Assembly (NCBI RefSeq): GCF_000189635.1
Contig: NW_002476559.1
Location: 744,001 to 808,000, forward strand
Source: Tetrahymena thermophila SB210
Lineage: Eukaryota; Ciliophora; Oligohymenophorea; Hymenostomatida; Tetrahymenidae
Direction of reading: 5' to 3'
DNA: 64,000 bases
The position numbers and the translations under genes were made by a program. The notes under the pieces were generated by a model. The model made no database searches. It saw only the letters and a list, made by a program, of their open reading frames with translations, and was not told where the DNA came from. Shown here in pieces: positions 2,645 through 57,694 of the stretch (positions are counted from its first letter, which is position 1; each line of letters opens with the position of its first letter).

Positions 2645-5600
2645 ATGGAGAGTTAGCAATCAAAGAATTCAATAGAGGATAGAAGCGATTAAATAAATAG
2701 AATTATCTAGGATTTGAAGAAAGATGATTATGATATTAAATTTTATGCTGGTTTACTCAGGAGATAACTCTGTATAGATATATAAAGCATTTATTCTGTT
2801 GGATCTATTTAAGACTATTCCCAAGGTTATAAAGTGCAATAGATGATTCAAGCAGTCAACTCTTTGGAGTCAACTTATAGCATTTGGTTAGGAATTAGAG
2901 GTGATGGAAATTGTTTTTACAGGTCAATTATTGTTCTATATTTATTACAGCTTTCTCAATAATAGGGAGTAGAAAGTTTAGAAAATTTTATTATAAGGAT
3001 AGATAATATTAAAGAGATTGAATCATAAAATGATGTCCTTATAACAAATAAAAGCAAGCTATTTAAGCAAATATTTTTAATTTACCTTCTAGAATTAAGA
3101 GCAATTAAAATCAAACATTAGGAGATTAATCTGATGAAGATAGTTAATCAATACAACACTCTTCCTGAATTAGACTTTTCTGCAGTTGTTATAACTAGAT
3201 ATTTGATATACTAAACATTTTAAAAGAATAAAAGTCATCCCTCATTTTAAATGTTCATTGAAGAAGAAATGAGTAAATAAATTCCTCGTATCTTGCTTAA
3301 ATATTCAGAATATGCAGAAGATATCATTATTCCTCTAGCCGCTTAAGTAATAAAAAAAATAAAATATTTAAAATGGTTATTTATTGACTTTTTAATACTT
3401 AATTTATAATAAAAATAGGCTTTTAAAATTCAACTAGTAGTATAAAACCTTTATAGATAAAACTCTGATGGTCCTATAAATACTGAAAAATTATTCTACA
3501 AACCTTTTTCTTCAAAATAAGAAAAGGAATATACTGAAATTCATGTTTTATTCACACAAGGTCACTATGAAGCACTCATTACTAATGAAACATATATTGA
3601 TGATCCGAAATTCTATGACTACTTTGTTTCAAGTACCCCTCATTTTTTTTAATAAGAATAATACTACTCACAAATAATTAGAGATCTAAATTTAGAGCTA
3701 TTTTAATAAAATAAATCTACATTCAGCAGGAATACAGAAATTAAAAATTAAGTTTCAAACTCTATCAACAGCTCTGAATCTACTAATTATACTGAGATTA
3801 GCTAGAAGACAAGTTAATCAAATAAAAATTCAGAAAATGCGACACCATAAACAACACTAAGTCAAGATTAAAGTATTTTAAGTAAAAAAGAATAGAATAT
3901 TGAAGAGCACAGTGTTTAAGCAAGTTCTACCTAAAAAAATACTGAGATATAGAGTGACTAAAAAAGTTAGATTAGAGAAATTTTATAGACAAAAACAAGT
4001 GAGTAGAATTAGCTGGAACATAAGAATTTATTGAATGAAAAAAAAGATGGTTTAGACAACACGCACAACAATGGAATAAAAGGTAAGTTAATAATAAATA
4101 AATAATTCAAACAAATAAAATTAATATTTATTTTAAATAAATAAGAATAAGTTTAAGATAAGAATGACTAAAAGAGTAATGAAAAGGTTGAATAAATTAG
4201 TGAAGATATTTAATAAGAGAATAAAAAAGAGACCTAAAATGAAAATAGCAAGCAAGTCGAAGTTTAATAAGCATAAATAGAAGAGAGAAAAAATGAAATT
4301 GATCAAAGTTAAATCAACATTGAAAACATTACAAAAAATGATTAAATACAAAAGTAATCTTCAGATTTTATAGAAAAAAATAAGGGAGAGGCTTAAGCTT
4401 GTGAAAACGAAGAGTAGAATTAAGATTAATAATGTTTTATATGCAAAGAAAATTCAAATTAATATATCTAAGTCTTTCAAACACTGAGGAAAAAAAATCT
4501 TGTCCCTATTTGTGTTGCTTGCTTGCTTAAAAAATTATAGAGACTTTATTACTTAGATGTTGATAGTTATCTTGTATTTGGTATTAGTTCTATCTTTTAT
4601 TTAGACAACTAAAACTCAGAAAAGTTAAAATAAATTATAAGCGAATAATTCAAGTTTAAATTATAAAATAGAAGATACGATATATTGAGAGACCCAATCA
4701 CTTAATAAGATTTAAAAATCCATAAAGATAATTAATAATGCTTTGAATGCAAATAGAAAGCAGAGCAAAATATATTAATTTTTGAACCTAATTATAAAAA
4801 TTCAAAATATGTTTGCATTTCATGCTTAAATAATAATTTAAAGATACTCTATACCGATAGCAAATATTTAGTGTATGGCCAAGGCCCTACCTATTATTTA
4901 GATGAACCAAACATGAACAAGCTTAAGCAAATTGTAGAAAAATAATTTAATTATGAGTTAAAAAATGGTAGATACACAATAGTAAGGCAGAACAAAACTT
5001 CAGCTGAATAACAATAAAATCAATAATTAAACTAATAAATTACTTAAAAATGTTTTGATTGTTAATAAATTTCTGAGCAATAACACATTTTAATTTCAGA
5101 ATCAAAAATTAAAATAAATGCATAATATGTCTGTATTCCATGCTTACAAAAGAATTTAAAGATATTTTAAAGTAATGCTAAATACATTGTTTATGGCCAA
5201 AACACATTCTATTACTTGGATGAGATAAACTCTTAAAATCTAAAATAAATTATTGAATAGTAATTTACTTATGATAATTACAATGGAATTTATGAAATAA
5301 AAAGATAGAATAATTCATACATTTAATAAAACAATCAAATTTCATAAGAGTCAATAACTTAGAACTGCTCTAAATGCAATTAAAATTCAAAAGATTTTAT
5401 TTAATACTCACAAAGTTATTATAAGAAAGATTCTTCAGTTATTTGCATCGAATGCTTGGAAAATAATCTAGAATAGTTTAACTTAAACATAAGTTTAATT
5501 TCTTTAAGGAGTCATTCTTTTCTTTATCTTGATGAATAAAACTGCTAAAAACTTTTAGCAATAATAAAAAGTAAATTTAGATACGAAGAAAACAAAGGAA

Positions 5601-7453
5601 CATATTAAATATTAAGAAACGATTATTCTTTTAAGTAAGATTAAGAATCTTAGTGCTTTAAATGTAAAGAATTAAGTCAAGAATACATTTATGTTTCGAA
5701 AGAAAAAATAGCCAAAGAATAATTAACTTTATGTATTCCATGCTTATAAAAGAATATAATTGAGTATTATACCATTCTAAATTAATTCATGTGCAAATAA
5801 GATCTAAAACTTTTTGTCAACGATGAACAAACATCCTTAAAAATCCAAAAATTTATTAAATTAAATTTTAAGTATGAAAATAAAGGCTTTAGGTTAATAG
5901 TTTAAAGAGATAGCACTAGTAGCGACAAGCTAAATATAGAAAACTAGGACTCTAAATAACTTCAAAGTACAAATCAAGTAAAAATTAATAACTATACAAA
6001 TACCCCTTAAAAAGAAAGATTTGAAGAAAGTAAAAATATTTGTGAAGGTAAAATTTAATTATCAGATTAAAAATTTACAACTCCAAAATAGGATAATAAA
6101 GACTCCTAAAAGTAGCCTTACAGCGAACCAATACTAAATTACCAAAATCAATAGAAAAAAATTTAACCACAATGTCAATAATTTGAACAAAAAAATTCAA
6201 CAGAAAGTCATTAATTCCATGTTTAAGAGGAATGCATATATTGTCATCAAGATATCAAATAATTAAATAAAGAACTCATAATTTCAAGATATGGACATGG
6301 ATATCTTTGTTAATAATGTGTTGATGATATTATTGATAGCTATAAAGAAGGAGAAAAATTTGTTTTGATAAATCATAAATTGTATGAATATTCAGATAAC
6401 ATGAAAAACAAGCTTTAAACTATTTTAGATAAAAAAAAAGAATAATAAAGCTTTATTTCTATTAGCAATGAAAAAAAATCTCATTTATCTTTAAATTCTG
6501 AAACAAAAGAGCTTTAGATAAGAAATAATTAAATAAATTAAATAGATTCAGAAGAAAGTAAAAAATAAAATCATAATTTGATATAATTAAAAAATTAATA
6601 CTCAGATTTAACAATTTATAGTCAAAAATGCTATTCAGATTAATGCAATAATAGAGGGTTATATAATGTCTATTAATATATAGCAGATGATAAAGAAGAA
6701 GTAATGGAAATATACTGCAGAGATTGTTTAATTGATAAATTTTTAGTTGGATTTGAAAAAGGACAAATAATGGTGTATTTTGATGGTATGCTCTATAAGC
6801 TTGATAAATAATCTAAATATGAATTAGAAACAGAAAAAGATAACCAAAAATTTATTTAATAGAATTTTGATAGGTTAGATGATTTTATAGCTCAAAAAAA
6901 ATGCACTTTTTGTTAGAAAAACATTACATTTTATGGTAGTCCTCTTTGCTATGGTTGTGAATACTCTTAAAGATCTTAAATTTCTAACAGACCAGCTTTG
7001 GCTACAGGACAAATGTCATTTAATGATAATAATTAAAATAATTTTTATCAAAAGAAATAGATAAATGATAAGGAAATTTCAAGCTCAGAAAAAAACACTT
7101 TTGGAAATTTAAATAACCAAGATAGATTCATCAATTCTAGCAATTAGTCTCCTTTAGAGTAGGATCTTATAAGAAACTCTATTGAGCATAAAAACAATTA
7201 AAGTTACAATTTATATGGTCAACATTATTATACAAGTCAAGATAGACAAATCTATGAAAGTAAACAAAATAGTGCTTAATAAAAGTACAAAATTACTAAC
7301 GAACCTTTAGTATCATAACAGGAAAAGTAAAATTAAATGAACTGCAAAGAATGTAATAAAGCATTATATCGTAAGAGAGAAAATGGTTTATGCGATATTT
7401 GCAATTACTATAAAACAAAGTAATAAGAAAAATATTACATAAATTCTCATTGA
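2645..7453 (+). CDS. Otubain-like deubiquitinase with a long CxxC-repeat array
   Basis: Start ATG 2645 is fixed by a TGA two codons upstream. An intron (3347-3418, 72 bp, GTAATA..AATAG) contains a TGA in frame, so it must be spliced. A second GT..AG segment (4083-4145, 63 bp) is in frame without TGA and may be spliced or retained. The product is about 1557-1578 residues. Residues about 60-300 match peptidase family C65 (otubain): GIRGDGNCFYRS with Asp87 and Cys90, and LFTQGHYEALI with His283. Known otubains cleave ubiquitin from substrates with a Cys/His/Asp triad. A Gln/Asn/Ser-rich linker follows. From about residue 573 to the C-terminus come some nine units with two CxxC pairs separated by about 15-25 residues; five of them also share a trailing YLDE..L..II-type segment. 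These are presumably zinc-binding. No animal otubain I know has such an array. The same intron position recurs in the three paralogues downstream. Confidence 0.87.
4083..4145 (+). other. 63-bp in-frame GTAAG..AAG segment, optional intron
   Basis: The segment starts GTAAGTTAAT and ends TTAAATAAATAAG, with composition typical of introns here. Its length is a multiple of three and it lacks TGA in the coding frame, so splicing or retention both keep the frame. If removed, the junction codon becomes GAA. Confidence 0.45.
4433..7420 (+). repeat. Cys-pair repeat array within the otubain gene
   Basis: Direct reading gives successive pairs: CFIC..CVAC, CFEC..CISC, CFDC..CIPC, CSKC..CIEC, CFKC..CIPC, CIYC..CQQC, CYSDQC..CRDC, CTFC..CYGC, CKEC..CDIC. 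The first five units are 80-95 residues long and align well with each other, including motifs like LVYGQ..YYLDE and a QF.Y....G.Y.I.R end; the last four are shorter and looser. Tandem duplication followed by decay toward the C-terminus is the simplest history. The fold is not recognised. Confidence 0.75.
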
Positions 7454-8309
7454 AATCTGAGCAATTTATTTATTAATTAAGAATTTATAAAATTAAGTAA
7501 GTTTGCCTTTATTTATGTTAAGTCAATTACTATTTCTTAAAATTAAAAAAAAAAAAAAATTGAAGATTTAAATTAAAAAAAAGCATAGAAAATAATTAAA
7601 ATATATTTGTGTGATATTTCTATTATTATTGCTACTTCTACAACTTAAAAAATATTTTGATAATAAGAAATAGATAGATAGATATAAATAGATTTTCCAC
7701 TCTAATTTTTTATTATCTATTTTATTTTAATTGTTTAGTTTTTACCTAATAAATCTTAAAAAAATAATTTTCATTTAAATAATTCTATTTTGCAAAAAAT
7801 AGTTTAATTTTTACTCTAAATAAATAATTTATACATTAAAAAATTTTAATATTCTTAAATTAATTTATGTAAAATTTTATTTTAACTTAATACTATCAAT
7901 TAATTTAGTATTTTACAAATTTTTATATTCCATAATAGATAACAAAACTTTTACCTTATTTCGAATTAATTTAAGTAAAATATATATTATATTTTTATTT
8001 GTTACTTAAAAAATAAAAAAATCATATTTTGATTTTCAGCTCACATACAATAAATGGTTTAATTTTATAAAATAATCTCTTAATTAACTGATAACGTATG
8101 AATTTAAATCAAAAAAACTAAAATTAAAATAAATTAAAATTAAAAATAATTAAGATATATTTATAAATATTTTTTTTGCTTTTATATATTTAAATAATTT
8201 AATTATTTATTTGTTTGTTTGTCTGTTTGCTTTTTCGGAAGTTATAAAAGTAAATTGCTATAAAAATTAAATATTAAATCTCCATAAATATTAAATCGAA
8301 TAAAGCTCT
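7454..8309. other. Intergenic, AT-rich
   Basis: Contains poly-A/T runs and short tetranucleotide tracts (GATA at about 7671, TTTG at about 8209-8225). No gene or RNA recognised. Confidence 0.6.
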
Positions 8310-9827
8310 ATGGAATCAAGTAAATATCAATATTCTTTAACTATATTTTAGTTTAAGCCTAGAGAGTTAAAAAAAATAAATTTTTTCTTGATGGTGTCAA
8401 GGATTGTTTATTTATCTTATTAGCTGTATTTAATTTATGCCCTAAAAGATCTAAGAAGAAGTAAAGAAATTTACTAGTAAATACCTTACTATGCTAATTT
8501 GTTAAGTATAGTTATTATTCTAATGAGAATGCTAGATTTCTAGTAATTTTTAAGCAAATTAAAAAGCTAATTATTGTATTAAATTCCTTTGAAGAGTAAA
8601 GATAACTATGAAAGAAAGTTATACTAATTAAGAGTAAGTGAATACCTAATTGATTAAGATTTAAATTATTTAATAAACTATAGTATGCAATTGCTATTCT
8701 GCTATTACTTGGTTTATGAGACAGAAAATTAACATTTATATCTCTTAACTCATCTTTTTAATTCTTTCTTTCAATTTTTGCTTTAAAATTTAAGAAGAAA
8801 AAAACCTGAGACATCTATATCTGTTATGAAAAAATCTGTAAAATCTGTTTTGTTTAGATTAATGATGTAGACTCTTATGTTTTTAGTTTTATTTAAACTT
8901 TAAGCTAAGATATTTTACCTGCTTTTGATAGGATTAAATATCTTGATTTGTTTCTCTCTTTAAAAGTTTATTTATGTTTACACTGAGTTCGAAATAAGTG
9001 TTCTTGAGTATTTTTATGCTGTTTTTTAAATGATGTTAGGCTTGCATTACAAACAAGATCTAGATTTACCCTTCAGTCATCTTGCTAAAAGAAAAAGTAT
9101 TTTTTAAATTCTATAAATAATATTTTTGACATTTTTGGGATTTTATGAAGTTTTTGTTGGTCTATCAGATAAAAAATTTATAAAAGTTTATCTAAGAATT
9201 TTATTATTATTTCATTTACCATATTTTTGGATTTTCTATAAGTAGATAAAAAACTATTTTTGTTTAGGTCCTTACAACATCTACTGTTAGTTTAATAGTG
9301 ATATTGAAGTATTTTAATTCATTTAAAATTATCAACAAAGTAAGTTAAAAATAACCAAACAGTAAGTTTCGATAAATTTAATTTCGTACCTTCAACTATA
9401 GGAGGATGCTTAGTAAAAGTTATTTGAAATAGCTATGAAGTTTTAGCATAAATATATATTTATTTAAGTTATGGGATAATTATTTATTAAAGTAAATCCA
9501 AAGCTAAAGAAAGTGTATTTAAATTGTTTTGATAAGCAATCAACTGATTTACTCTTTTAATTGTTGGAACAAAGTAGCTATTAAGATTATTTAATTCAAA
9601 TTGGTTATGTAGAAAAAAATATTTCTGCGTTTACAGCAAGCTTAATCATTTAGTAATAAGAGCTAATACCATAATTGACCTTTACAGAAAATAAATAAAA
9701 TATAGTATTAACTACTTATTTAAAGTCTTTCAAAAATGAAATATACAAATTAATAGTGTTTAATAAAAATATAAATTAAAAGCTATGTTTCTCTCCTTTA
9801 TAAATTTACTATGATCTTTATGATTGA
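8310..9827 (+). CDS. Multi-pass membrane protein, QIYYDL-tail family
   Basis: A single exon of 506 codons (505 aa) in the ciliate code ends at TGA 9825-9827. The N-terminal half has six or more hydrophobic segments (for example IFYLLLIGLNILICFSL and ILLLFHLPYFWIFY); the C-terminal half is more polar. It ends PLQIYYDLYD just before the stop, the tail found in six other genes of this window, and has a LGPYN motif at the place where the others have YGP..R. This is the most diverged of the seven members and lies apart from them, between two otubain genes. The family has no function I recognise; location in a membrane is inferred from hydrophobicity only. Confidence 0.8.
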
Positions 9828-11250: not shown

Positions 11251-14232
11251 ATGGAAACAGATTAAATCATAGATAATTTATTAAATCAAGTTAAAGCGCT
11301 AGATTTATCTTCATTAAGAGAATATTCTTCCAACAGGAATACGGCAAATATTTGCTATATTGACTCCTTATTTAATATTCAATCTTAATAAAAAGCGGAT
11401 GAAATTAAATAAGTATATAGCATATTGAGCTAGCAATATTCTTACTAATTAGCAGTTAGAGGAGATGGAAACTGCTTTTACAGAGCTATGATGTTAATGA
11501 AAATATTTTATTTAGCTTCAAATAATGACTCCCTACTTTTAGAAAATTTCATTTAGTTTATTTCAGATCTTAAAGACATTTAAATAGATGTATGTGCAGC
11601 TTAAGTAGTTTAAGGCTCTGGTCTATAACTTATTTTTAGAATTTTTCTAATGAAAATACTTTCTTGGAAACAGTAGCAAATAAATATTAACAGCTTGATG
11701 ATAATAAATGAGTACAATTCCTTACCTGAAGTAGACTTTGCTGCATGTTCTATTGCAAGATTTATGATTTATCTTAGCTTTTAAAAATACAAAAGCCATC
11801 CACAAATCAAAGCTTTTGTTGACGAGGAGGTTTAATAGGATATCTATAAAAGTATCTTAAAATAGAATGAATACGCTGAAGGAATCATTATTCCTTTAGC
11901 AGCACAAGTAATATTTTATTTACATTCAATTTTTATTTTCATATTTGAAGACTTTATTTTATTCTTTTTGAATTCAAAGTAAAATATTCATTTATTCTAA
12001 TCAAATTAGAGTTTTTAGTGTTAGCTTGTCATTTAAAATATTAACTGTGAGCAAGGATCTGCTTTAAAAATTAAAAAAGATAATATTGTTTATAAACCAA
12101 TGGTGTTGCAACAACCTGACATTTGCTAAATTCACTTACTCTTTAGTAAAGATCATTATGATTTGTTATTTTTGAATAACTAGTGCGAGTAATTCCCTTT
12201 ATTTTATAAAATATCATCTACTAAATTTAGTTTAGCTTTACAAAATATAAATTACTTCCAAAATTTCTTACTACATAGAATATTCTATTTGAAAAATCAA
12301 AGTAAATCTCAAATTTAAAATAATAATTTCTAAGCATAATAAGTAGAAATTTAGCAAAATTAAAACCAAAATAGTCTTGCAAGTTTTCGATCTTTCTAAA
12401 GCTGTAGAGAAACTCCTACAGCGCAATCAAGTAGTTAGCTTTAAAAAGCATAACAAGTGAACCCAAGTTATCCAAATAAGATACAATTAGATTAATCAAT
12501 CAATATGAAATTGTAGGAAAACAGTAAAACTTAAAATAAAGAAATAAATCTTTAAAATAATTTATAGATAAATTAATAAAATAGTAAAAATCTTTATTTA
12601 TCAAATTAATCCTCACCTAAAAATAGTGTTGAGTCAAATTAAGAAAATAAAGAATTAGAAATTCAAAAGTGTGTTTTATGCAAAAGGAAAATTTATGGCT
12701 TTTCTGAATGTTACTAGATTAAATAAATACAAAGCAACGTAATAGAAAAGATATGCAAAATTTGCAATTCAAAAGCTTCTCAAAAAGAGTAAGAGGACAA
12801 AAATATATTAATTATAAATTAAAAGTAATACATTTATTTAAACGTAAATTAAAATTAAGAAGATTAATAAAAAAAACAAAATAATCAGTAATTAAAGCAG
12901 CTTACCAAGCCTGAAAATAAATAATTCTTCAGAAATAAATCTGTTTAGCTTGATAGCTAAAGTTTTCCAAATTCAATTCCTTTAAAATAAACTCAAAGTG
13001 AGATCTAAAATAAATGGGATAGTTAACTAAATTTTGACTTTAAGAACTTTGATATGGATTTTAAGATTTAAAAGGAAGAAGTCTGCTTATAAAATAGTGC
13101 GTTTATGATAAATTAATCAATATAATAGAATACTACTAAAAATTCTATTTAAAATAAAATTAAATTGACTTCAATTTAATTACCTTTAAACATTAAGAAA
13201 AATTAAGTTGCTCCCTTATTATTTGAAGAAGAGGAGGAAGGAGAAAAAATAAAATAATCTTCAAATAATAATAACAAGTAATACTTTACAGCTACTCTTA
13301 AATCTCCTAATAATGCTGAATTTGGAAATTTATCCTAAAAAGATAATAATTAGAATGCATAAGTTGCCAATTAATTGCAAGAAAATTAAAAAAATGAGAT
13401 ATTTAAGTGTATTTAATGCAAAGGACCCTTCAAATCTCAAAAGTATATATTAAAAGGAAAAAAGATTGCTTTACTCTGTGCAGAATGCCTTGAAGAAATA
13501 TTAAAAGATTTAAAAAAAGATCAAAATTCTATTACAATAGACGGTTAGAATTATAAGTTTGGAGATTCAATTATATCTAAAATTAAAGAACAAAAACTAA
13601 TAGAAAAATAAATTTAAAAAAATAACATAGTCAATCCAAATCAATAATTATAAAATGACTAAAAATAATAAGGCTCTAAAAAAATTTAAAATTAAATGTA
13701 AGCATTTTGTTCTAAATTGCAGTGCAATTTATGTAACAAAAATGAATATTCAACATATGAAATTAGTGAAGTTTAAAAAGGAGGAAAAGAAATAATACAA
13801 AGAGTATGCACAAACTGTGTTTCCTTGTTTGTATCATATTATAAACACCCATCTTAAATAGTTAGCTTTGATAACAAAACATATAAAATAAATGAATTGT
13901 TTGGTAAATACATCTATAATCTATAGTTGTACTAAGTAAAAGCTGAAGCATATACTTACTAATAGTTTTTTAATAGAGAAGGACATGAGAAGCAAAAGTG
14001 CATTATTTGTAATTCTTTTTGCAAACAGCGATATCCTGTCTTTAATATAAACAATCCTTAAACATAGTAATTGTTAGGACATTTTTGCTTTTACTGTAAT
14101 TTACATTGCATAAAAGATGGTAAATATTTTATTTTCTAAGAAAATACCTATATACTTGGCGAATAGCTCTAAAAGTATGCTTTTGAACATATGCTCGTTT
14201 AAATAGATCTATACAATAAAATTTCTAAATGA
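11251..14232 (+). CDS. Otubain-like deubiquitinase with four Cys-pair units
   Basis: Exons 11251-11907 and 12010-14232 flank a 102-bp intron, giving 959 residues and ending at TGA 14230-14232. The intron splits the gene directly after IIPLAAQ, the same place as in the other otubain genes here. Peptidase C65 signatures are VRGDGNCFYRA (Asp72, Cys75) and LFSKDHYDLLF (His268). A Gln/Asn-rich linker leads to four Cys-pair units between residues about 440 and 915: CVLC..CKIC, CIQC..CAEC, CNLC..CTNC, CIIC..CFYC. Catalytic residues are intact, so activity on ubiquitin or a related modifier is likely but untested. Likely a paralogue of the 2645-7453 gene, with fewer repeats. Confidence 0.86.
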
Positions 14233-15532: not shown

Positions 15533-17379
15533 ATGGATATTTAAGAAAATTAGTCGCAATAAGTTGAAAAACAAGAAAGCTTATAGAAATAAGATGAAAA
15601 TGTAGACAAGTTGAAGCAGATTAGGGCTTCAATTAAGAGTATGGAAGTGAAATAGATCAAAGAATTGAGAAGACTTCTTAGAATTGAAAACTTGCAAAAT
15701 GTTGAGGAGATAACTACTTTAGAGTATTTAATGATGATTATGAATAACAATGCATTGAGAAGTGCTTTAGTATAATTGTAGAACTAGTATAAGATGATGT
15801 ATAGGACTCTAGGAGATGGAAACTGCTTCTATAGATCTATAATGTTAAATAAAGTCTTCTGGCTTGTTGAGTAAAAGAGCTGCGAGCCACTTGAATAATT
15901 TATAATATAAATAAATAACATTCCTTAATTGCAAACTATATTTTAAACAGTTCCAATAAACGCTAATAGCTTAAAATCTATTTATCTATTGTTCCTATTC
16001 AAAATTCTCGAAGATAAAAAGAGCAACAAGTAATTGAGAATGCTTGATATTATTAGGATGTACAATAGCTTGCCTGAAGTCGACTTCGCGAGTGTTATTA
16101 TATGCAGATAGATGATCTTCAACACTTATGAGTCTTTTAAAGTTCATGACTCTTTTAAAGATTTTCTAGATGATGATATGAAAGAAAAGATAGAATTCGT
16201 ACTGTTAAGATATTTCTATGAAGCTCAATATGTAATTATTCCCTTGGCTGCTCAGGTAAAATTTTGTGTTTATTAACTTTTATTTATAAAACTTTTTATA
16301 TTTAATAGACGTTTTAATGCGAGCTTAATATTTAGAATTTTTATTAGCCTGATTAGTATTCAAGCAAAGTAAATATCGAAAAGCTGAATTACTCACCAAT
16401 CGAAGTAGAAAATAAAGATGCTTAAATGCCCAGTTTCAACCTTATTTATAATGGTGGACATTATGAGCTAGCTATTTTGGATTCTTAAGCTAAAACAGAC
16501 TTTTACAAAATAAATAAACAAATGATATCATTCAACACTCAATATTCAGACTAGCAATATTATTATTTCATATAAAACTTTATATAAAGATATCAAACAG
16601 AAATTATAAGAATGAATAACATAGAAGAAAGTGCTTTCTACAATTAATAAAATGGCTCTAACGAAGAAGAAGAATATTAAACTCTAGATTGGTAAAAATT
16701 GCAAAGAAGTGAAGAATACAGAAGATAGAATTATGAAAATTAAAAGTTGAAAGTATTAATTGAAAATTTGTAAAATGAAAACAATTAGGTGAAACAATAA
16801 GACGACAAGCTACAACAAAAGCAATAGTCGAACTCTCAAATAGATTCTTAATAAGAAAAAAACTCTAAAAACTAATAAAATGAAATACCTATTGAACTAG
16901 ATGAAAAAAATTAAGTAAATAAAACTAATTAATATTAACCAAAAATTTAACAAAAGTCATAATCTTCTTAATTTGATTAAAACAATTAAAATTTATAGTT
17001 TCAAAATCTTCCTTCAAAAAATTCTATGACCAATTAATAGAATAACTCAGGAGAAAATGACGTTAATAATATGAAATATGACTAATAAGATCAGCGCGTA
17101 TTAGACTTTTAAAACATGAAAAGAATATGTGTGTAGTGTAATAAAAAACTTCCATCCGATTTTAAATATCCTTTTTTTGTTCTCCCTATGGATGAAGACA
17201 TACCAGATAATGTGGTCCTAAGAATTTGCACTGACTGTTTTATTGATCTTGCTAGTAAATATCAAAATGACTAAGAATTCATTGAGGTAAATGGCAAACT
17301 ATATCAATTAAGTCCAAGATTAATTGGCGAATTAATTTCATTCATTTAATAATCAAGTAAAAAGAATTAAAAAAACTGA
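15533..17379 (+). CDS. Otubain-like deubiquitinase with one Cys-pair unit
   Basis: Exons 15533-16255 and 16309-17379 flank a 53-bp intron, giving 597 residues and a TGA at 17377. LGDGNCFYRS holds Asp95 and Cys98, and YNGGHYELAIL holds His292; the intron again follows PLAAQ. After a long Gln/Asn/Lys-rich linker there is a single unit, CVQC..CTDC (residues about 515-552), followed by a short FIEVNGKLYQL segment that resembles the segment trailing the units of the larger paralogues. This suggests a unit of two Cys pairs plus a small strand-rich tail. Catalytic triad residues are present. N-terminal codon use is somewhat richer in G/C than the linker, which is common in ciliate domains versus linkers. 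Confidence 0.86.
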
Positions 17380-17972: not shown

Positions 17973-20900
17973 ATGGAAAAAGAAATGTTCGGACTTCACT
18001 AGTAGTAAAGATTCTTTTTGGAAGAGTATAGTAGCAATTTAGGAATGGAATTAAAGGAGATGAACCATAGAAGAGGTCAATCATTAAATAGCGAAATAGA
18101 TCTTTCGAAAGTTCACAATACCAGCGTTTAAAAAGATATTACCTATAGTAGCAACAACATTGCGAAATTATTACCAGAATATTATAAAAGTAATAGTAAC
18201 AATATTAGAAATGATAATGAATAACTTATGTAAAATAACTTGGAGAATACTAATATTTAAATTACTGTCAATGAAAGGGCATTTACAGCTTAGTCTTTCC
18301 AAAATATTAAAACTGAAAACATAAATAATTAGGAAGATAATAAAAAATATGATTAGATATAAAAAAAGGCTTCGAATTAACAATCCTAAATATAAAAAGG
18401 AAAGGCAGCAAATGATGATCTTAGAAAATAATAAACTAAATCTAGGAAACAAGCCTAAAATATATTAAATATAACAAACCAAAAGTTTTAAAATATGAGT
18501 TTGATCTCTAAAGTAATGAAAAAAATTACTTACTTCTACTAAATGTATACTTCGAAAGGACGACTGAAGTTTTTAGAGAACTCAAAAGTTAGAGATATAA
18601 TTAACGATAGCAGTGAGTCAAATTAAGTAAATTCCTCTCTTTTCTTTTAAATATTTGATATAGCAAACAAACTTTTAAGTCTCTACGAAGAACTTTCAAA
18701 CAAATACATTCCACTAATAGATGCTTATGGAAATGTTAACTTGTTCTTGCTAACATTTTACTTACTATACAATTTCTCATTCTTCTATTTACTTTCTTTG
18801 GTATTAGTTTTTGATATGCCCTCAGATTTTTTTGAGTATATTTACTTTCTGACTGGAACTCTTTGGATAATTTAATCGCTTCTCTAGATCAATACAAAAA
18901 TCTACAAACCATTTGAGCCTGAATACAAAAGGAAATAAATTTTTATTAATTACATAAAAAAAAGATCATTTTTTGATCTTTTACCAATTGTAATTGTATT
19001 TTATCTTCAATTTGAGCTGGATGCAAATCTATTTTTGAAGTGTTTACTATTTATTAAATTAAAAAACATAGTCACTAACGTTTATGAAATACAAAAGCAA
19101 CTATGCATGATGTTTAAAAATTATTTCTTCATCAAATTGGTTAATTTGATCTTGTAACTCTTCTTAATAGCTCATATTCTATCTGTTTCATGGTACTTGT
19201 TAGGTTTATTTGAAGTTAAATATATGAATGAACCAAAAACATGGTATGACGATGGAATTTCTAGTGATTTAGTATGGTGGAAAGTGTATTTATCTTCAAT
19301 TTATTGGTGTTTAACTTTGATGACTACAGGTTCAAACATAGCCACTACAGTATCACAAACAATGTTTACTTGCATATCAATGATATTTACAGCTATAGTG
19401 TATGGTTACTTAATTAATGTTATAGGAATCATACTTTCAGAACTTGATAAGGTGAATGAGACTAAAAATAGAGATATCAATATTGTTAATGAATATATGA
19501 GAACAAAGAACATTTCAAGGTTAAATATTTTTTAATTAACTTTTAATAATTTAATAAAATCACATACATAATTTTGGCAATATTTTAATTAAATCAAATT
19601 ATTTTTCCAGCTTTTTCAGTCTAAAATATCATTAAAATATACATTTACTCCTCATTAATTCTTATATATTTTTTCAGCATAAAGTAGTGAAAATTTTCTA
19701 TTTCTAAGAGTTTTCATAAAAGTGAATAAATATTTTTTTTTGTAGCTTAAATAATTAAATAAAAGGTATTTAAACAAACAAACAAACAAAAAAATAAATA
19801 AAAATAATTTTTGAATAATTTTTAAATCTATTAAAATCAATATTAATTTTAAAATTTGATTGTTTTTTTTCAAATAAAGGACTTTAAGAACAAAAGTAAA
19901 TATGGATATCGAATATTACTACACAAATAACAAATCTGATGAAACAGAAGATGAAGCTGAAGTTTTAAATAAGCTACCTTAAGAACTAGTTGATGAACTA
20001 CAGATGGAGTATAGCTAACAAATTATTTCTAAAATAAATTTTATTGCAGAAAATTTCAGCAAGTAATTATAGGATGACCTTGGATACGTATTTCAAGAAG
20101 AATCTTATTTCCCAAGCTAAACAATTTACTCAGAAAAAGATACTATGAATTTATCTATTTTTTACATTTTATAAGGAGAAGGTAATTTGTTAGTTACTTT
20201 GTTAATTAATTTCTTCCTTTTTACAAATTTTATTTAAATTATTTATTTTTTAATTCAAATTTAAAGTTACTTTACAATAAAAAATTGCTGATGACCCAAG
20301 TACTTTAAAAACTTATAAGAATCTCAAGAAGGGATAGATATTTGGTGAGATTTCTTTCATCACAGATTAGGCTAGGGAAAGCACAGCTATCGCTTCAAAA
20401 TATACAAGAGTAGTTAAAATCTTAAGAAATGACTTTCTACGTATCATATAAAATGATACTAAAGATTTTGAAATTTTTAAGTAATTGAAAGATAGTATTA
20501 TGCTTTATGAATCTTTTAAAGAAATAGATGTGAATTGTAATATATGTGGTAGCTTCTATCATCAAGAAATTAATTGTAATCTAGTTCATCTTTCTAAATA
20601 AAATATGTACTTTTCAAGTATGTTTAATCAAAGATAGGTTCAAAGTCGCTAAAAGCAAACAAGGAATAAAGCAAAATTTAATTCAATTTTAAAGTCTCAT
20701 TTAGTTAGAGAAGGAGTAAATAATTTTGTGGAGACATATTAGGAAAATAGCGTCAATAGTGAATAAAGTAATTAAGAAGATGATTATGAGGAAGAAAAAT
20801 AGAATTAAGCTTTACTTAAATAATAATCTACTCGCCAATCATAAGATATTACAAGCGTCAAAAAGTAAATTTTAATAGAAAACTTGTAAAGAAGACCCTC

Positions 20901-24840: not shown

Positions 24841-27800
24841 ATTTATTTACAGTAGTTTGTTTTTTTACTCAAAAATAAAAAATAATTTCTAAAATATATC
24901 TAGTTTTTAATTAATAAAAGTATACAATAATAAAATAATTGTTTATTTTTTTACAAGTTTTAAAATATAAATAACACATTTCTTTTAATTTTTACATTTA
25001 ATGTATGAAATATTTATTTTTTTGTTATCATGTTACTATTTTTGGTATATTTACAAGTCTAACTAGTTTTTTCTAAATTAATTTTTGGAGATAATTATTA
25101 CTTTTTTGATATGTTTCTCTATTAAAATAAAATATAATAATTTAATTTATTAATTTTGTTGAGAATTTGAAGATTTTTCATTTTAAAAAGAAATATTGAT
25201 GGATGAGTAAAATCTGCACAAAAAATAAATGTTTGGTTAAATATTTACATATGATACTATAAGAGTAAAAATTTGAAATGTTTACTTCATAAAAAAAGCA
25301 AGACTGTTTAACTATTTAAGTGTCTACAACAGATTTTATATTTAAAAAATTAATTTATGATCATTATACTGATTACTTTATGTTTAAAAAATTAAATTAA
25401 ATATTATAATTGAAACAGAAATATTCTTACTTAGCTTATACATCAAAAATTTTTATATTTTTGCAAATTTATATTTACTAAATTAAATTCAATAGGCTCA
25501 ATTCACTTATTTGAGTATAACTAATTGATTAAGAAGAAAAATCATTAAATTATTTAACAACAAAACATTTAAAATTCTACTTAATAAGCATACGTAATGA
25601 TTTTAGCTCCTTAAAATTAGGAATATATGAAATGAATATATTTAAACCATCATCTTTAATCTAATTCTTCCTAGATTTATTTTTTAAAAATATAAAAAAT
25701 ATAAAAAATAAAATATTTAAATTTTTACGAAAAGCTGACACTAAGATGATTGAGTTTTAAAAATTAGATAGATTCCATAAGGGAGTTTATTCCATTTTTA
25801 CTGATTTCATTTTTACTTTTTAAAAATATTTGATTTATTTTAGAAATAAATGGGTAATTTATGTAAGTATGTATGTATGTTTAAAGTCAGTCAGTATTTA
25901 CAAAAATAATAAAGAAAGGCTTTGCATATTAGTTAGATTAAAAAGACTTTGTCCTATTACACCAATTGAATCATTTGAAATATTATTATCTCTAATTTAT
26001 TTATTAATATTAGTTATATTTAAAATAAAATTAAGAAAATACTGAGTGAGTATTTGAAAATGTATTACTCTAATATTAGGTCTAATTATTCTAATTAAAC
26101 CAGCTTAGATATGTGTTTTCCTAACATAGAAACTCCTTAGTATCCTAGTGAATTTGATCTTGTAAATAATATTAAATATAATGAAATTAATTATATTGAT
26201 TGATTGATCTTACGATAAACCAAGTACTAATTTCTTTAATTTTTTGGAAAATTATAAGTTAATACCAAGTTAATCAACTGATCTATCAATTAAACCTAGA
26301 TTACTTTTTATTTAAATTTATTAAATTTTTTAATAAAAAAATGATGGCTTTGTTTACTATTAATATAACATCAGTTCTTCAAGATTCTAAAATTTAGAAA
26401 TTTCTAAATAAGTATTATTCAAGCTCTAAAAAAGAGGATCTTCTATGTTTAGTTTTTAATAATCTTCTCTGCATATAAAGTTGATCATTAAATGAGTAAT
26501 ACTGTAGCATTTTAATAAATTATATGCAATTTTATATGTATCTTTATCATTAGTAATTTTTAATTTCTTTAAATTATGACATTTGTTTAATTAATTTCCA
26601 AAGTCAGTCATTTAAACTACTTCAAATGATATAGGACTATTTATTTTAGTAAAATTAATCATTTAATTGAGGATGTTTTACAGTTAAACAGAAAGAGCTA
26701 TCTATTAAAATAAATAATTTACTCTTTAAATATAAGTTCTAAATTTGCTAAACTTTTATTTTTATTTATTTCTTCAGCAAAATTGTTTTGGCTAAACCAT
26801 TAACTACTATCAATTCTTTATTTAAAATAGTAAAAAGAGTCAGAAAATATGTTTAGTTAATACATTTAAAACCAACAATTTACTTGATTAACACAGATTT
26901 ATAGCTTACATTGGGGTAATTTGATATCGCTTCTTTAAGGGAGAAAAAATTAAATAATTCTTGACCATTTGCCTTTCTAATATTATATTTGAAATAAGTA
27001 TAACAATCAATTGTGCTAATGTATAAACTATGATACTTGAATTCTAAGCAAAAAAACTGATCATTTTGAGTAGACTAATTTAAAATAAAATATTTCTATT
27101 TATAATTGGGTCCATTGAAAAATAAATTACCTATTAACTTGTTTGTATGATAATTTAATCTTATTTTTACATCCTATTTGTAGAAATTGTTTTATTTTAA
27201 ATAATATTTGTAAATATTAAAATAGTAATTAGCATAAAATCAATAATACTGATAAGTGTTATTAGAATAATAATTTGGTAAATCTAAATTCATTATCACA
27301 GCTTATTTAATTTTTGAAATTCTATATAAAAAAGGGTATTTTATCTATCTGTTTGGTTATTAAACCAATTTTTTATTCTATGAACATTTTTTTTGGTATT
27401 ATTATTTTCTAATACAATTAAGTTAATAAGGGATTTCAAAACTTTTAAAAGTAAAATAATTTATTTAAATTTTGAAGCATAAAGTAAGTTTTTAATTAAA
27501 TAAAACAATATTCTTTCATTTATAAAAACTAGTATCAGCTCATAATATAATCTAATCAATTAAATCAATTATGTATAAATAATTATATTATCCCTGATGT
27601 CTTTGGAAAAAATATATAATAAATAAATAAACAATTGACTGTTTCATATAATGAATCATGCAAAACTCCAGCAACTGAATGGGTTAAAATAAAATTATTC
27701 TTTTATAAAAAAATGAGTAAATTGTAAAATTTTTAAAATAAGTTCTTACTATTCAATTTTTATATTAATAGTAGAATTTGTATTATTCAATAATAATTGC

Positions 27801-27936
27801 TTCATAGATAGATAGATACTACAAAAAACATTGAGCAACAATATTTTAAGAAAAATGGAAATAGATAGTTTTAAAATTTACATAAATAATTTATTTTTTA
27901 TATAAATAAGTAGGTAGAGAATAAAAAATACATACC
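24841..27936 (+). repeat. Copy 2 of the tandem unit
   Basis: Begins with TTTACAGTAGTTTG (about 24848), matching copy 1 at about 21531, and runs in the same order as copy 1. A segment of about 150 bp (27720-27860) is the reverse complement of the matching place in copy 1 (24420-24570). It ends abruptly at 27936, where the inverted-repeat sequence begins; copy 1 has GAATAAAA-like sequence continuing at the same point. Confidence 0.75.
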
Positions 27937-27996
27937 GTATTCCCTCGATAAGACCCACCGATCGGTCAACCGAGGTAGGGCAAAAATGGGAGATTT
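27937..27996 (+). repeat. Left 60-bp inverted repeat (possible transposon end)
   Basis: Starts GTATTCCCTCGATAAGACCC, the most GC-rich sequence in the surrounding kilobases. Its reverse complement is found at 38442-38501, with the first 23 bases identical and about 51 of 60 matching overall. No clear target-site duplication is visible. It interrupts the junction of repeat copies 2 and 3. Confidence 0.75.
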
Positions 27997-30385
27997 CTTT
28001 TAATTTTTAAATTAAATTATGGAAATATTTATTTTTTTATTTTCATGTTACTATTTATGGTATATTTACAAGTCTAACTAATTTCTTTTAAATTACTTTT
28101 TGGAGATATTTATTACTTTTTTTATAGACTCCACTATTAAAATAAAATAAAATAATTTAATATATTAATTTTGTTGAGAATTTGAAGAAATTTCATAAAA
28201 AAAAAGAAATATGAAGGATGAATAAAATATAGACAAAAAGTTTTTGGTTAAATATTTACATTTTATGTTTTAATTTTCCTAATGTTTTTGTGTAAGTTTA
28301 AAAATTTGAAATGTTTACTTCATAAAAAAATCAAGATTGATTAACTATGTAAGGGTCTATAACAAATTTTATATTTAAAAAATTAGTTAATCATCATTAT
28401 ACTGATTGCTTTATGTTTAAAAAAATTTAGTTAAATATTATGATTACATACAGAAATATTCTTACTCAGCTTATACCTCTAAAACTTTTATATTTTTGCA
28501 AATTTATATTTACTAAATTAAATTCAATAGACTCAATTCACTTATTTGTGTTTAACTGATTGTTTAAGAAAAAAAATCATTAACTTATTTGACAACAAAA
28601 CCTTTAAAATTCTACTTAATGCGCATATGTAATGACTTTAACTCCTTAAAATTACGAATATATAAAATGAATTTATTTAAACCATCATCTTTAATATAAT
28701 TCTTCCTATTTTTATTTTTTAAAAGTGAAAAAAGAAAATAATTTATTTATTTATGTTTTACGAAAAGCTAACACTAAGATGACTGAGTTTTAAAAATTAT
28801 ATAGATTCCATGAGGGAGTTTATTCCATGTTGATTGATTTCATTTGTACTTTTTAAAAATATTTGATTTATTTAGAAATAAATTGACATGTATGTATGTA
28901 TAAAATCAGTATTTATTTACTAAAGTAATAAAGAAAGGCTTTGTAAATTAGTTAGATTAAAAAGGCTTTGTCCTATTGCACTAATTGAATCATTTGATAT
29001 ATTATTACCTCTAATTTATTAATTAATTATATTTAAAATAGAATTAAGAAAATACTGAGAGAGTATTTTAAAATATTTTTACTCTAACCTTAGTTCTAAT
29101 TATTCTAATTAAATCATCTTAGATATGTGTTTTCCTAACAAAGAAATTCCTTAATATCCAAATTTATTAAAACTTTTAAATAATTTTAAATATTATTAAA
29201 TTAATTATATTTATTTATTTATAGATTGATCTTACGATAAACCAAGGATTAATTTCTTTAAATTTTTGGACGATTATAAGTTAATACCAAGTTAATCAAT
29301 TGATGTATCAATTAAACCTAGATTGCTTTTTATTTAAATTTATTAAATTTTTTAAAAAAAAATGATAGTTTTTTTTACTTTTAATAGAACATCAGTTCTT
29401 AAAGATTCTAAAATTTAGAAATTTCTATATAAGTATTATTCAAGCTCTAAAAAAAAGGTTCTTCTATGTCTAGTGCTTAATAACCTCCAGATTAAAAGTT
29501 GATAAGTAAATGAGTAATACTGTAGCATTTTAATAATTAATATGTGTGTTTATATGTATTTTTCTCATTATTAATTCTTAATTTTTTTAAATTATGACAT
29601 TTGTTTAATTAATTTCCAAGTTCATTCATTTCAACTTCTCCAAATTATTTGTGTCTTAATAAAATTTAATTAAATTAAATTATGTTCTGAAAAACATTCA
29701 GCTTTTTTAAATGTAAATATTTATGATATAAAACTATTTATTTTAATAAAATGAATCATTTAATTGATAATGTTTTATAGTTTAACTGAATGCATTAAAA
29801 AATAAAATAAATAGTTTACTCTTTAAATAAAAGTTCTAGATTTGCTAAGCTATTATTTTTATTTATTTCTTCTGCGAAATTGTTTTGACTAAACCATTAA
29901 CTACTATCAATTCTTTATGTTAAAAAATAAAAAATGTTTGAAAATATGATTAGCAAATATATTTAAAGCTACTTAATTAAGACCGATTGATATCTTTAAT
30001 TTGGATAATTTGATATCGCTTCTTTGAGTGAGTTAAAATTAGATAATTCTTAACCATTTGCCTTACTAATATTTGAAATAGAATATCAATCAATTTCGCT
30101 ATAGTACAAATAATGATACCCGATTTCTATGCAAAAAAATGGATAATTATGAGTAGACTAATTTATAATAAAATATTTCTATTAATAATTGAATCCACTG
30201 AATTATAAATTACTTTTTAACATTTTTCTAAGATAATTTAATCATATTTTTACATCTTATTTGAAGAAATTGTTATATTTTAAATAATATTTGTAAATAT
30301 TAAAATTAAATCAGTAATTAATACTAAATCAATAATACTGATTGATAAGTGATATAAGAATATTAATTTGATACAAATCTTTAAC
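27997..30385 (+). repeat. Copy 3 of the tandem unit, truncated
   Basis: Starts directly inside the left inverted repeat with ATTTCTTTTAATTTTTA-like sequence (matching copy 2 at about 24978) and keeps the same order: TATTTATGGTATATTTA at about 28052, CTTAGATATGTG at about 29118, ACTGATTGATAAGTG at about 30336. It lacks the first 130 bases or so and the last 600 bases of the full unit. Confidence 0.7.
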
Positions 30386-31733
30386 GCCAAGTAATCCTTG
30401 TATTTAATTTTGCGTATTTATTATATAATATATTCATTAAATTGTTTTATATTCTTTAAATTATTAATATATTAAATCATATCAATTACATACCGTGGGT
30501 ACGCATGAATAAGGATTATCAAAAAAAAAAAAATCTTTACAAAAATTTTTTATTAATTTTTAAAATGATAAAAATTAAAAATAAAAATTAAGTTTTAAAG
30601 CAGGATAAAATATGGTAATAAATTAAATTTAATTTAAAATGAAAATTATTGTAGAAATAATAGAAATATTTAAAAGTGTTAAGCCGTTTAATTTATTTGA
30701 TGATAATGTAAATAAAAATATTATTAAAGTTTGTTTTTAATTATTGTATAATAAATAGATAATTATCAAAAATTTTGTAGTTCTTATAAAAATGAAATAT
30801 TATTTATCTTTCTTAATTACTCAGTTGGCATTAATTTATCTTCTTTTTCTCATATAAGTTATTTTAGTTGAGATATTTTAACAACTTTTTAAAATAATAA
30901 ATTAATTAATTAATGATTATTATTAATATTTAAAATTTAATTATTTTTTTAAAAGGACAAATTGGAAAAATAAATAAGGGAGTTAAAATTTATATATCTC
31001 ATGCAAGATAATTAATTATTTAAAACTGAATAAGTAATATATATATATTCTTAGTTTATCTTTTTTCTTAAAAATTGCTAGTCAGTGATGGTGGTATATA
31101 TATCAATGGCAAAAAATGATGATTAGATAATTCAAGTTATTTATGTATTTCTTAAAATAATAAAATATAAGATATTTTTAATTATTCGACAATTAATATT
31201 TATTAAAATGTTGCAATTTAAAAAAATAATGTATTATTAATTAACTAATTAACTAACTAATTAATTATTTTTGTTTTTTTTAAGTATAATAAATCATTTT
31301 TATTTACTTTTATGATTGATATTATAAAATCATTACATTTTTAAAAATATCACTCTGAAAATTTAATTAATTTAAATCTTTTATGGTTTTTATTGTTATT
31401 TAAAAATTCTAATTGTTTGATCAAATTCTTATAAGTTTAAAAAAAAAGTGAATGAAAATTTAAATAGTTCAATTTGATATTGATTCAAAACTGTATGAGT
31501 GATGTGATGTGTAAATTCCTAGTTTATCTTTTTTTCATAAAATTCTAAGTAAGTGAATGGCTTATTGGATAATATATAGACTCGATATTAAGCAATATTC
31601 TGTAAATAAAGAATAAATTCAATTTGATTTATATTCTAGAAGTTATCTTTGGGAGTAAAACAATCATCTGATTTTGATTATAATTTTGTAAGTTTAAATA
31701 GTAAATAATTAACCAAAAAGATATTAGAGTCAA
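30386..31733. other. Intergenic, AT-rich
   Basis: No gene recognised. Near 30491 is a small near-palindrome, TACCGTGGGTA. It also contains (TTAA)n-like tracts at 30898-30912 and 31235-31265. Confidence 0.5.
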
Positions 31734-33251
31734 ATGCAGTAGGGAGATTAGATAATAATTGAGTGGAAGCACTACGAATTAAAAACATTTAGGATTTTAT
31801 TAACCTCAGTATTTTTAGTGTATAGGATTTTTACCCTTTTTGCTCTCTGCAAATTGTTTTTAGATGAGTATTACAAGACATTTGCCTTATTAGTTATTAG
31901 CTAGATATTGCAATTATCTGTCACTTCAAATATTGTTTATTCTAGTTTTCTAAATAAAATAAATGCTCAAGCTATATTTTGGGAAATATTTTATTGGATA
32001 CCTAGAGACAGAGAGCACTAACTGGATCTTTTAAAAAGTTAGCCGTTTGGTTAAATTATTAAAGTTTTGATACCTTTAGTAGAAAATTTAGCATTTCTCT
32101 CCATAATAGTGTTCAACTATAAAAATCAAAGCATAGTTTACTTAATCGCATAAATGATGAGCTCTTTCCTCTTTTGCTTTCTTATTGAAATAGATAATTA
32201 CAAGCAAAAGAGCTTTTTTTAAACTGTTTTAAGTTGTGGATTTAAATTTGTCATGATGAATGTTTATTTTGGTTACTTTTTGATTTGCCATCGTTCTAAT
32301 TGGATCTACTTTTACGATATTACTATATTAGTAGTCTCATTTGGTATTATCTGCTCTAATCATTTTTCTCACATTCTCTTAAAGTTTGGATATAAGCATG
32401 ATCGACTGGATAGTCGTTTAGTCCAGCTTGTGCAAACAGGATTGATAGTACATAACTTTGGTTTTTACTCTGAATTCAAAGTAGGTAGCAAAGATGAAAA
32501 GGAGCAGCAAATGTCAGATTAGACAAATATTTTATGCGGTATGTAGGTATTTTAGCTTTGCATATTCATTTTATTTGACAATCTTGTAAATGAGAGAGTA
32601 GAAAATGACATCTTTAGGACGATTCTACATATTTACTTGATATTAATTATCTATTACTTGGCAAAAGTATTTAGCTGGTTTATTAATTATATTTATTATG
32701 GTCCATTCAGGAGAGCCATTTAAATAGATTGCTTAGATATTATAAACATGTCTCTTAAGCAAATCGAAAGAAACTACTTCCGATTCAACTCGCTCCAAGT
32801 GAGTGCCACAATTTATATTAAGAACTTTTTACCTTAACAATTCGAAAGACTATTCAGTTATCTACTAAAACAAGATATTAATTTAAATATTTTTCTAGAA
32901 GGGAATCTGAAGTTGAATTACTTTCTAACAAAAAAAATTGAAGGAGTTATTAAGCTTAGATTGATGAACAATGAGTTTACAATACAAGTTGTGAACTAAA
33001 TCATTCAAAACAAGCATTACAAGTTTATGTATTCTCTCCAAGTCAATAGTCACAACTAAGATCTCATTCTCTAAAATTTTGTAAAAAACTACTAAATTAT
33101 ACCAAACATATTGCTGAAAGAAAGCTAATTAAATAACTCAATCTTATTTATAGCAACAGAAGTAGCAAAAATTATTGTATACAACAAGCTAATCTAAGAA
33201 GAAATGAGTTTAAACCCAAGACAAATTTACTACGACCTATTTGATTTCTGA
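31734..33251 (+). CDS. Multi-pass membrane protein, QIYYDL-tail family
   Basis: A single exon of 506 codons (505 aa) ends at TGA 33249. About seven hydrophobic segments fill the first 300 residues. Then comes the family motif YGPFRRAIQIDC..LSxxQIE..YFRF (here IINMSLKQIERNYFRFNS), a polar C-terminal half with NYQIIPNIL, and the terminal tail NPRQIYYDLFDF. The start is the first ATG of a frame that is open further upstream without a better start. A single GC-richer block compared with its AT-rich flanks supports coding. First of three adjacent family members that lie between the two inverted repeats. Function unknown. Confidence 0.82.
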
Positions 33252-34128
33252 ACTAAAAAAATAGTATTTTATTTATATGATTCTAGTGTATTATATTTTT
33301 AATTTCATTTGTCCTCCCAAAAAAAAATTGATTTCAATTTAAAATAAATATATTTTTATATTTATTTTTTCATGCAAAATTAAATTTTATAAAATTTATT
33401 TACTTTTAAAAAGTTAAAATCTCTTATTTCTTGTAATTTAATGCACAAACATAATACAAAATTTATAAACACAAAAATAAAAAAGCATAAATAAAATCAT
33501 TTATAAATTTATTTTTTTATATGTTCATTTAAAAATAAAAATTAGAAAAAATGTCTTTAATATTTTTTTTAATAATTAAATTTATTAAAAATTATTTAAA
33601 AAGTATAAAAAAAATTGTAAAATTTAAATTTTTTAATAATTGTAACAAATTTATTATATATTCATCAATTTTGTATTAGATTTTTTTTCTCATAAATTAA
33701 AATAAATCATATTTAATAATAACAAAAAAATAAATAAATAACTTATTTTTATTAATTAAAAAAATGAATTTTTATTAAATATTTTTAAAAATAAATTTAA
33801 ACTTTTTATATTATTTTCACTGATTGCTTGTTTTCCTATTCATTTTATTTAGATTATTCTCTTTTAAAATTTATCGACAATTAATTTTATACATAACATC
33901 GATAATTAATTTAAAATAATTTATTAATTTTATTTATTATAGACTAAAATTTTTTATTTATTTAAAAAAATGTTTATTTTGATTTTGCTTTATCAGATAT
34001 TTAAAGATTTTTATTACTTTTTATTTATTTGTATTCTTCGAAAATCTTATAATTATAATTTCATACAAAATAAATTTAATTAAAATCTGCTTACTAAGGA
34101 TTAAGGAATTAAATTTTTAAGAAAAAAA
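33252..34128. other. Intergenic, extremely AT-rich
   Basis: Nearly pure A/T runs; no feature recognised. Confidence 0.6.
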
Positions 34129-42000: not shown

Positions 42001-42100
42001 GAATGTTAATAATAACTTAAGCGCAGCACAAAAATAGGATTTATAATATACGATGAAAATAAACTAAATGATTTCAGAATACTTAAATCAAAAAGAATGA
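39080..42100 (+). CDS. UBR-box zinc-finger protein, copy 1
   Basis: A single exon of 1007 codons (1006 aa) ends at TGA 42098. An N-terminal hydrophobic segment (LALVTIGGSAIAAAAFYYFY, residues about 7-26) suggests a membrane anchor. Residues 98-182 form a UBR box: CKKGFRQG..YECLDC, LCEECF..H..HRYKKI, FKCHCGES, CFCNNHRG. In N-recognins (UBR1/2) this zinc fold binds N-terminal degradation signals; the usual CDCG is CHCG here. The remaining 800 residues are helical and conserved with copy 2 but not recognised; I see no RING. It may be an N-degron receptor or a divergent E3 lacking a visible ligase domain. Lies in a tandem duplicated segment of about 4.1 kb. Confidence 0.85.
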
Positions 42101-46200: not shown

Positions 46201-46219
46201 CTTAAACCAGAAAGAATGA
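43205..46219 (+). CDS. UBR-box zinc-finger protein, copy 2
   Basis: A single exon of 1005 codons (1004 aa) ends at TGA 46217. It is collinear with copy 1, with the same N-terminal hydrophobic segment (GGSAIAAATFYYFY) and UBR box (CKKGFRQG..YECLDC, CEECF, HKGHRYKKI, CHCGQS, CFCNKHRG). All putative zinc ligands of copy 1 are kept. Differences are mostly single codons, small in-frame changes after the UBR box, and a more diverged patch around bases 44550-44770. Both copies have intact frames over about 1000 codons, which argues that both are under selection or that the duplication is recent. Confidence 0.85.
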
Positions 46220-57539: not shown

Positions 57540-57694
57540 TTTTAATTTTGCATAAATAAATTATTTTTAAATAAGATTCAACCAACAATCTCATTTCACA
57601 TTAAACATTTTTAAAATGCAATCAAATAAATAAATATGTATTTATAATGGATTTATTAAGAATCAAGTATTAAATAAATTATTAGGATTAAATT

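Follow-up and report, generated by a model that had tools for sequence, protein, structure and literature searches.

A Tetrahymena gene that joins an otubain-type protease to an array of nine cysteine-pair units

In TRABID/ZRANB1 an OTU-family protease is joined to three tandem NZF fingers; these are small, precede the protease and have their Cys pairs 10 residues apart. In A20 the OTU protease is accompanied by seven zinc fingers, two of which, ZnF4 and ZnF7, are binders of ubiquitin chains; in the animal the protease is apparently minor and a finger matters more (excerpts of PMC10919355). OTUB1, an otubain, can in addition inhibit E2 enzymes in a non-catalytic way (same excerpts). Amongst the alveolates, Toxoplasma has an expanded set of OTU enzymes, comprising one OTUB1 and otherwise members of the OTUD subfamily, with relatively few accessory domains and a cryptic ubiquitin-binding domain (excerpts of PMC10038098). 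We describe here a gene of Tetrahymena thermophila SB210 in which an otubain-like head is followed in frame by nine Cys-pair units. It lies at 2645–7453 (+) of a 64 000-nucleotide window, contig C17 744001–808000, to which all positions without a contig name refer. In agreement with the species, a domain of the RIB72B gene matches chain 1R of PDB entry 8g2z, from Tetrahymena thermophila, at 97 of 97 aligned residues. The computations give an otubain profile and fold, the catalytic residues, an array in frame, and units that are repeated within the gene and, diverged, in tandem neighbours. We give roughly even credence to the idea that the product is an otubain-subfamily deubiquitinase with a multivalent zinc-finger array as its C-terminal tail, the working plan of A20 reached independently.

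The window was translated with table 6, in which TAA and TAG specify Gln and TGA is the stop. The gene has 1602 codons open in one frame; by comparison, 60 simulated 64-kb windows of the same dinucleotide frequencies gave TGA-free frames of at most 680 codons. A coding model, for which six stretches other than this gene served as training data, placed the gene's reading frame top of three in all 16 windows of at most 100 codons, linker included. GC content in the window is 17.5–27.6% per 2 kb. Exon 1 (2645–3346) encodes an N-terminal extension and most of the C65 domain, as placed by the gene model and Pfam, and exon 2 (3419–7453, 1344 codons) the end of the domain, the linker, the nine units and the TGA stop. 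The two are separated by an in-frame phase 0 intron of 72 nt and 9.7% GC (3347–3418), the removal of which gives a protein of 1578 amino acids. The intron occurs at the same place in 11 of the 25 family models described below (this gene counted), in phase 0 and directly behind PLAAQ or the corresponding residues; C278, a plain otubain, carries introns elsewhere and the remaining models have none there. Residues 236–244 of the unspliced structure model, part of those encoded by the intron, have a predicted local distance difference test score (pLDDT) of <50. A second in-frame GT–AG stretch between units 6 and 7 (6558–6605; 48 nt, 12.5% GC) is kept as coding by the gene model; it is a possible intron, and its removal would leave every unit intact. 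The linker between the head and unit 1 holds no GT–AG intron candidate of <14% GC and 40–250 nt. Since the open frame is longer than the simulated chance frames, the coding signal continues through the linker and no intron candidate is found there, the fusion is taken as real at the gene level.

The head was identified as Peptidase_C65 (PF10275; E = 1.5e-14, 54.5 bits, cut-off 24.3) in a Pfam scan of the piece 2645–3700, with the best stretch at residues 63–210. Scanning by pieces was required: all 1602 residues submitted as a single protein gave nothing, C65 included, probably owing to composition filters. An otubain fold extends over 2774–3589 (unspliced residues 44–315) in a structure model that, like the model of the long unit discussed below, rests on a shallow alignment. 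The head has the otubain version of the OTU fold, and its structure matches are led by otubains; A20 is not among the 50 matches listed, which excludes nothing. The DGNC motif (2903–2914) supplies catalytic Asp87 and Cys90, and GHYE the catalytic His (3563–3565; residue 307 unspliced, 283 spliced). All three occupy aligned places when the head is compared with the 24 others, C278 included, and with a PDB otubain. An earlier note on this DNA had read an otubain from DGNCFYRS and GHYE and had proposed its fusion to a Cys-pair array. The first claim is borne out by the profile, the fold and the aligned residues, and the second, at the gene level, by the C65 profile, the single open frame and the coding signal through the linker.

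The linker is 28% Q+N. From residue 561 onward the tail contains 17 CxxC motifs, against a mean of 1.5 and a maximum of 8 in 2000 shuffles. Five long units, assigned from the Cys pattern and a unit profile, occupy 4424–4720, 4730–5029, 5042–5335, 5357–5623 and 5645–5932 (units 1–5, pairwise identity 26–53%). Each has a YLDE-type segment and a QF.Y..G.Y.I.R-type end, and the structure predicted for 4730–5008 of unit 2 suggests that the long units possess an extra alpha/beta part beyond the Cys pairs. Unit 6 (6224–6439; profile and alignment) is shorter and only 17% identical to unit 2, and is grouped with the long units by its Cys frame. In unit 7 (6620–6844; Cys pattern and profile), a variant, the first pair is C-x4-C. 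Two short units, assigned from the Cys pattern, are CxxC-x11-CxxC (unit 8, 6893–7024) and, at the C terminus, CxxC-x12-CxxC (unit 9, 7334–7450). The earlier note's count of nine units, five of them long with these two segments, agrees with what we see. Its spacing of CxxC-x(15–25)-CxxC suits units 1–7, where 21–23 residues separate the pairs, but neither the first pair of unit 7 nor units 8 and 9, with 11 and 12. The four Cys are invariant in 20 of 20 units from six gene models, these units having been selected by that very pattern.

With pieces covering all nine units, no unit matched any Pfam family above its cut-off, and the supposition that the units are not a known Pfam zinc finger therefore stands. 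In these pieces there is no match above cut-off to the A20-type finger, a Pfam family. The best match to the NZF/RanBP2 type is Vps36-NZF-N on the unit 1 piece (E = 0.12, 12.3 bits, cut-off 27). The UBP-type finger, also a Pfam family, is absent from matches to E = 10 for the gene pieces and to E = 0.1 in a scan of the 20 units. Amongst PDB chains the best match of the unit profile is 8wtb_B (McsA; E = 0.0031, profile positions 3–54), in a part that binds zinc. When the profile was confined to the five long units, McsA was not recovered from the PDB, and the best match (E = 0.3) was to another protein.

Searches of the genome (101 Mb, 445 contigs) place the gene in a large family. The PF10275 profile finds 19 places and the head of the gene used as query 21, and one gene may hold several places; the PF02338 OTU profile finds 3, in contrast to the expanded C65. 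We built 25 gene models with otubain-like heads: 11 on C17 at 694–805 kb, five on C171 at 66–97 kb and nine elsewhere; one of the 25, C278, is a plain 282-residue otubain. At least two CxxC are present in 16 of the 25, and their number varies from gene to gene; in the C40 model they are confined to a terminal Cys run, and the head at 56399 falls outside the 16, its array having been modelled separately. Fifteen heads have the catalytic Cys, all with the His. In the other ten the Cys is replaced by Ser, Thr or Ala, and eight of these also lack the His; C171_69 retains it and C171_91, an incomplete model, is uncertain.

Three paralogues lie in the window, all on the + strand. The tandem copies at 11251–14232 and at 15533–17379 (exons 15533–16255 and 16309–17379) have heads with Cys and His, followed by four units and one unit, respectively. 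A divergent paralogue at 56399–60709 has Thr for the catalytic Cys, a Cys-pair array and a putatively RING-like end. It is two genes at default settings; at two of the three settings tried, with starts and stops made dearer, it is one gene of three exons and 1287 amino acids. It is paralleled by a gene on C138 (1379 amino acids) with a dead head and a terminal Cys cluster of RING-like spacing.

Other members of the family are built differently. The C40 gene (L036, 2935–7197, −) has a dead head, long charged repeats that look coiled-coil-like by eye and a Cys-rich tail. A gene on C171 (69698–72288, −; L016/L017) has a dead head and charged repeats, again coiled-coil-like by eye, with a hydrophobic segment near its end. 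At 694–715 kb on C17 (L038, L009, L010) there are four tandem genes, in which a Gln-rich part precedes the otubain-like head and Cys-pair stretches follow it; the heads are of GDNSFFR/GDHSFFR type, with Ser for Cys and Asn for His.

A tree of the heads was calculated from 24 rows, the incomplete C171_91 being excluded. Good support was obtained for five of its 21 inner branches, and some of the end branches are long. On head sequences the gene groups firmly (96/88) with a paralogue at 730 kb, the two heads being 40% identical (E = 1.5e-60); a larger group that adds the genes at 755 kb (87/76) and 759 kb (94/93) is proposed with reserve. Loss of the catalytic Cys requires at least four changes on the tree (3–5 in the bootstrap), although the well supported branches alone still permit one. 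A motif downstream in the units, defined after inspection of the alignment, occurs in six of 44 units from ten genes, against a mean of 0.34 and a maximum of 4 in 2000 shuffles. None of the six is in the 2645–7453 gene, the long units of which have an altered form, and a stricter version is found only in the 730-, 755- and 759-kb genes. When a profile of units 1–6 was searched, its best outside match, a stretch in L013 (E = 0.0023), covered positions 49–78, outside the Cys pairs, and was set aside as chance.

How might such a protein work? Each unit would bind one zinc ion through its two Cys pairs and the otubain head would cleave ubiquitin chains. The array would be non-catalytic and serve in recruitment, whether of partner proteins, of ubiquitylated targets or of ubiquitin chains themselves; the long flexible linker would keep what is recruited close to the head. 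The plan of A20, an OTU head with seven zinc fingers, would then have been arrived at separately, from an otubain head and unrelated fingers. The head is conserved in the tandem copies, whereas a genome search with units 1–5 gives no match at E ≤1 beyond the gene itself (the search scored two candidates). In the simplest reading, the genes would share a catalytic head, to which a flexible linker attaches a multivalent binding tail that changes from copy to copy. The dead-head paralogues may form a non-catalytic arm that binds or blocks ubiquitin or charged E2, two of them having RING-like ends; the inhibition of E2 by OTUB1 without catalysis makes this a plausible task for them. A wider proposal, which we offer tentatively, is that a separate ubiquitin-editing system arose within the ciliates. 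It would consist of a tandem otubain family with a new zinc-stabilized repeat fold as its variable reader, in which active heads would cleave and dead heads, some joined to RING-like ends, would bind E2–ubiquitin or chains. The repeat would then be a ubiquitin- or target-binding domain absent from the databases searched.

Several observations weigh against these ideas. Firstly, the gene models were built from the DNA sequence only. Secondly, the ubiquitin-binding zinc fingers known to Pfam give no above-cut-off match to any of the nine units. Thirdly, the likeness between units of different genes is weak. The profile of units 1–6 recovers those six and no unit of another gene, and comparison of the long-unit profile with five units of the 730-kb paralogue gives 38% probability (E = 3.3e-4) over 39 Cys-core columns. 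Since the profile searches and this comparison are weak, a common origin of the units would rest on the Cys frame, the unit alignment and the clustering of the genes. Relaxed constraint would equally lead the array to diverge rapidly. Finally, the end of the 56399–60709 gene has no Pfam RING match at all, and that of the C138 gene has no Pfam match above cut-off (zf-C3HC4, E = 0.054, 13.8 bits, cut-off 21) and no PDB match at E ≤10. For these reasons the ends are called RING-like from spacing judged by eye.

Instead of reading ubiquitin, the array might recognize substrates and have diversified through conflict, say with bacterial, viral or selfish-element proteins, the family being one of adaptive birth and death. 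We regard this as possible but less likely. The family forms clusters on two contigs, the CxxC count differs between genes, and no second copy of the array is found in the genome, even though one paralogue has a head of 40% identity. However, no link to defence was seen, and tandem duplication with fast evolution is also found in Tetrahymena leucine-rich repeat (LRR) genes (excerpts of PMC6564038) and so is not special to conflict.

It is unlikely that the array, or part of it, is a RING-like E3 ligase module with which the protein would edit chains by protease and ligase together, as described for A20. Such a module would accord with the match of unit 6 to zf-C3HC4_3 (19.5 bits) and with the ends of the C138 and 56399–60709 genes, which resemble one another weakly over a Cys-rich stretch (single-pair BLASTP, E = 8e-4). 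Yet the unit 6 score is below the cut-off of 27, no Pfam RING is above cut-off anywhere in the 2645–7453 gene, and none of its units, as judged by eye, shows the full set of eight RING metal ligands; in the 20-unit Pfam scan the RING profile reached E = 0.0013 at best, in one of the 20. The two ends themselves fared as described above.

Binding of nucleic acid by the array, with the protease acting on chromatin or ribonucleoprotein proteins, is improbable: the resemblance behind this idea is below significance and units 6 and 7 are acidic (net charge −1 and −5). It is very improbable that the protease gene and the array gene are distinct and merely share an uninterrupted frame, for although long open frames come cheaply when TGA is the sole stop, exon 2, which starts ahead of the His motif and runs through the last unit, stays open, with coding signal and no intron candidate in its linker, and the order of head then array recurs in the paralogues.

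Two tandem genes at 39080–42100 and 43205–46219, of about 1005 amino acids each and 83% identical, both carry a UBR-box (N-recognin zinc finger; E = 1.3e-10 in the first), so that ubiquitin-pathway genes lie inside the otubain cluster. UBR-boxes occur at 24 places in the genome, and C116 accounts for six of these. Of its 82 ubiquitin-domain matches, 42 fall within 20 kb of contig C169 (503–523 kb), an unusually large polyubiquitin-like cluster. The window also holds a multi-pass membrane-like family (7515–9827, 31557–33251, 33277–35750, 36573–38087, 46537–48243, 48856–50370 and 51354–53087) that by eye ends in a P-x-QIYYDLxD-like sequence; two members are 30% identical over 494 residues, and the two that were scanned have no Pfam match. 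A multi-pass protein at 17973–19814 resembles, by eye, the core of a cyclic-nucleotide-gated or potassium channel and has no Pfam match in a whole-protein scan. At 25361–29528 (−) broken-looking frames contain similar stretches that look leucine-rich by eye, perhaps decayed LRR gene copies.

We return to the idea of an otubain with a multivalent zinc-finger tail and set it beside what has been described. With OTUB1 and OTUB2 the head shares the C65 catalytic domain by profile, fold and triad residues. The PDB otubain chains found by sequence have 225–288 residues, whereas here the domain is extended by a linker and an array of nine units in about 1000 residues, and the Tetrahymena genome has 24 further otubain-like models. 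TRABID/ZRANB1 likewise pairs an OTU-family protease with tandem fingers; units 1–7 differ in having more than twice as many residues between the pairs, and the long units in their predicted extra alpha/beta part. McsA is a bacterial protein-arginine kinase activator without an otubain.

Amongst the open-access matches listed, part of those retrieved, there is no description of the fusion or of the family expansion; the earlier note's view that the fusion is undescribed holds to this extent, the check being limited to open-access literature. 'Ubiquitin' and 'peptidase' are both absent from the main text of a study of rapidly evolving Tetrahymena genes (PMC6564038), as are 'ubiquitin' and 'otubain' from one on the germline genome (PMC5182062). 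The genes may stand in Tetrahymena annotation databases as otubain-like proteins.

Like Toxoplasma, Tetrahymena is an alveolate with expanded OTU enzymes; its expansion is in C65, and not in the PF02338 group. A20/TNFAIP3 has an N-terminal OTU-family protease and then a zinc-finger array (excerpts of PMC10919355); the Tetrahymena gene has the same order of protease and Cys-pair array, and its units are predicted to bind zinc. It differs in its otubain head, in units without an above-cut-off match to any zinc finger of Pfam, and in a long linker rich in Gln and Asn. The array unit is a candidate new zinc-binding fold, and the family offers, in a tractable cell, natural otubain heads of two kinds, some with the catalytic residues and some lacking them. 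If the combination of an OTU protease with a finger array arose independently here, from another subfamily and with another type of finger, these roughly 25 genes, many with dead heads, would reveal on which part of the A20 plan selection acts.

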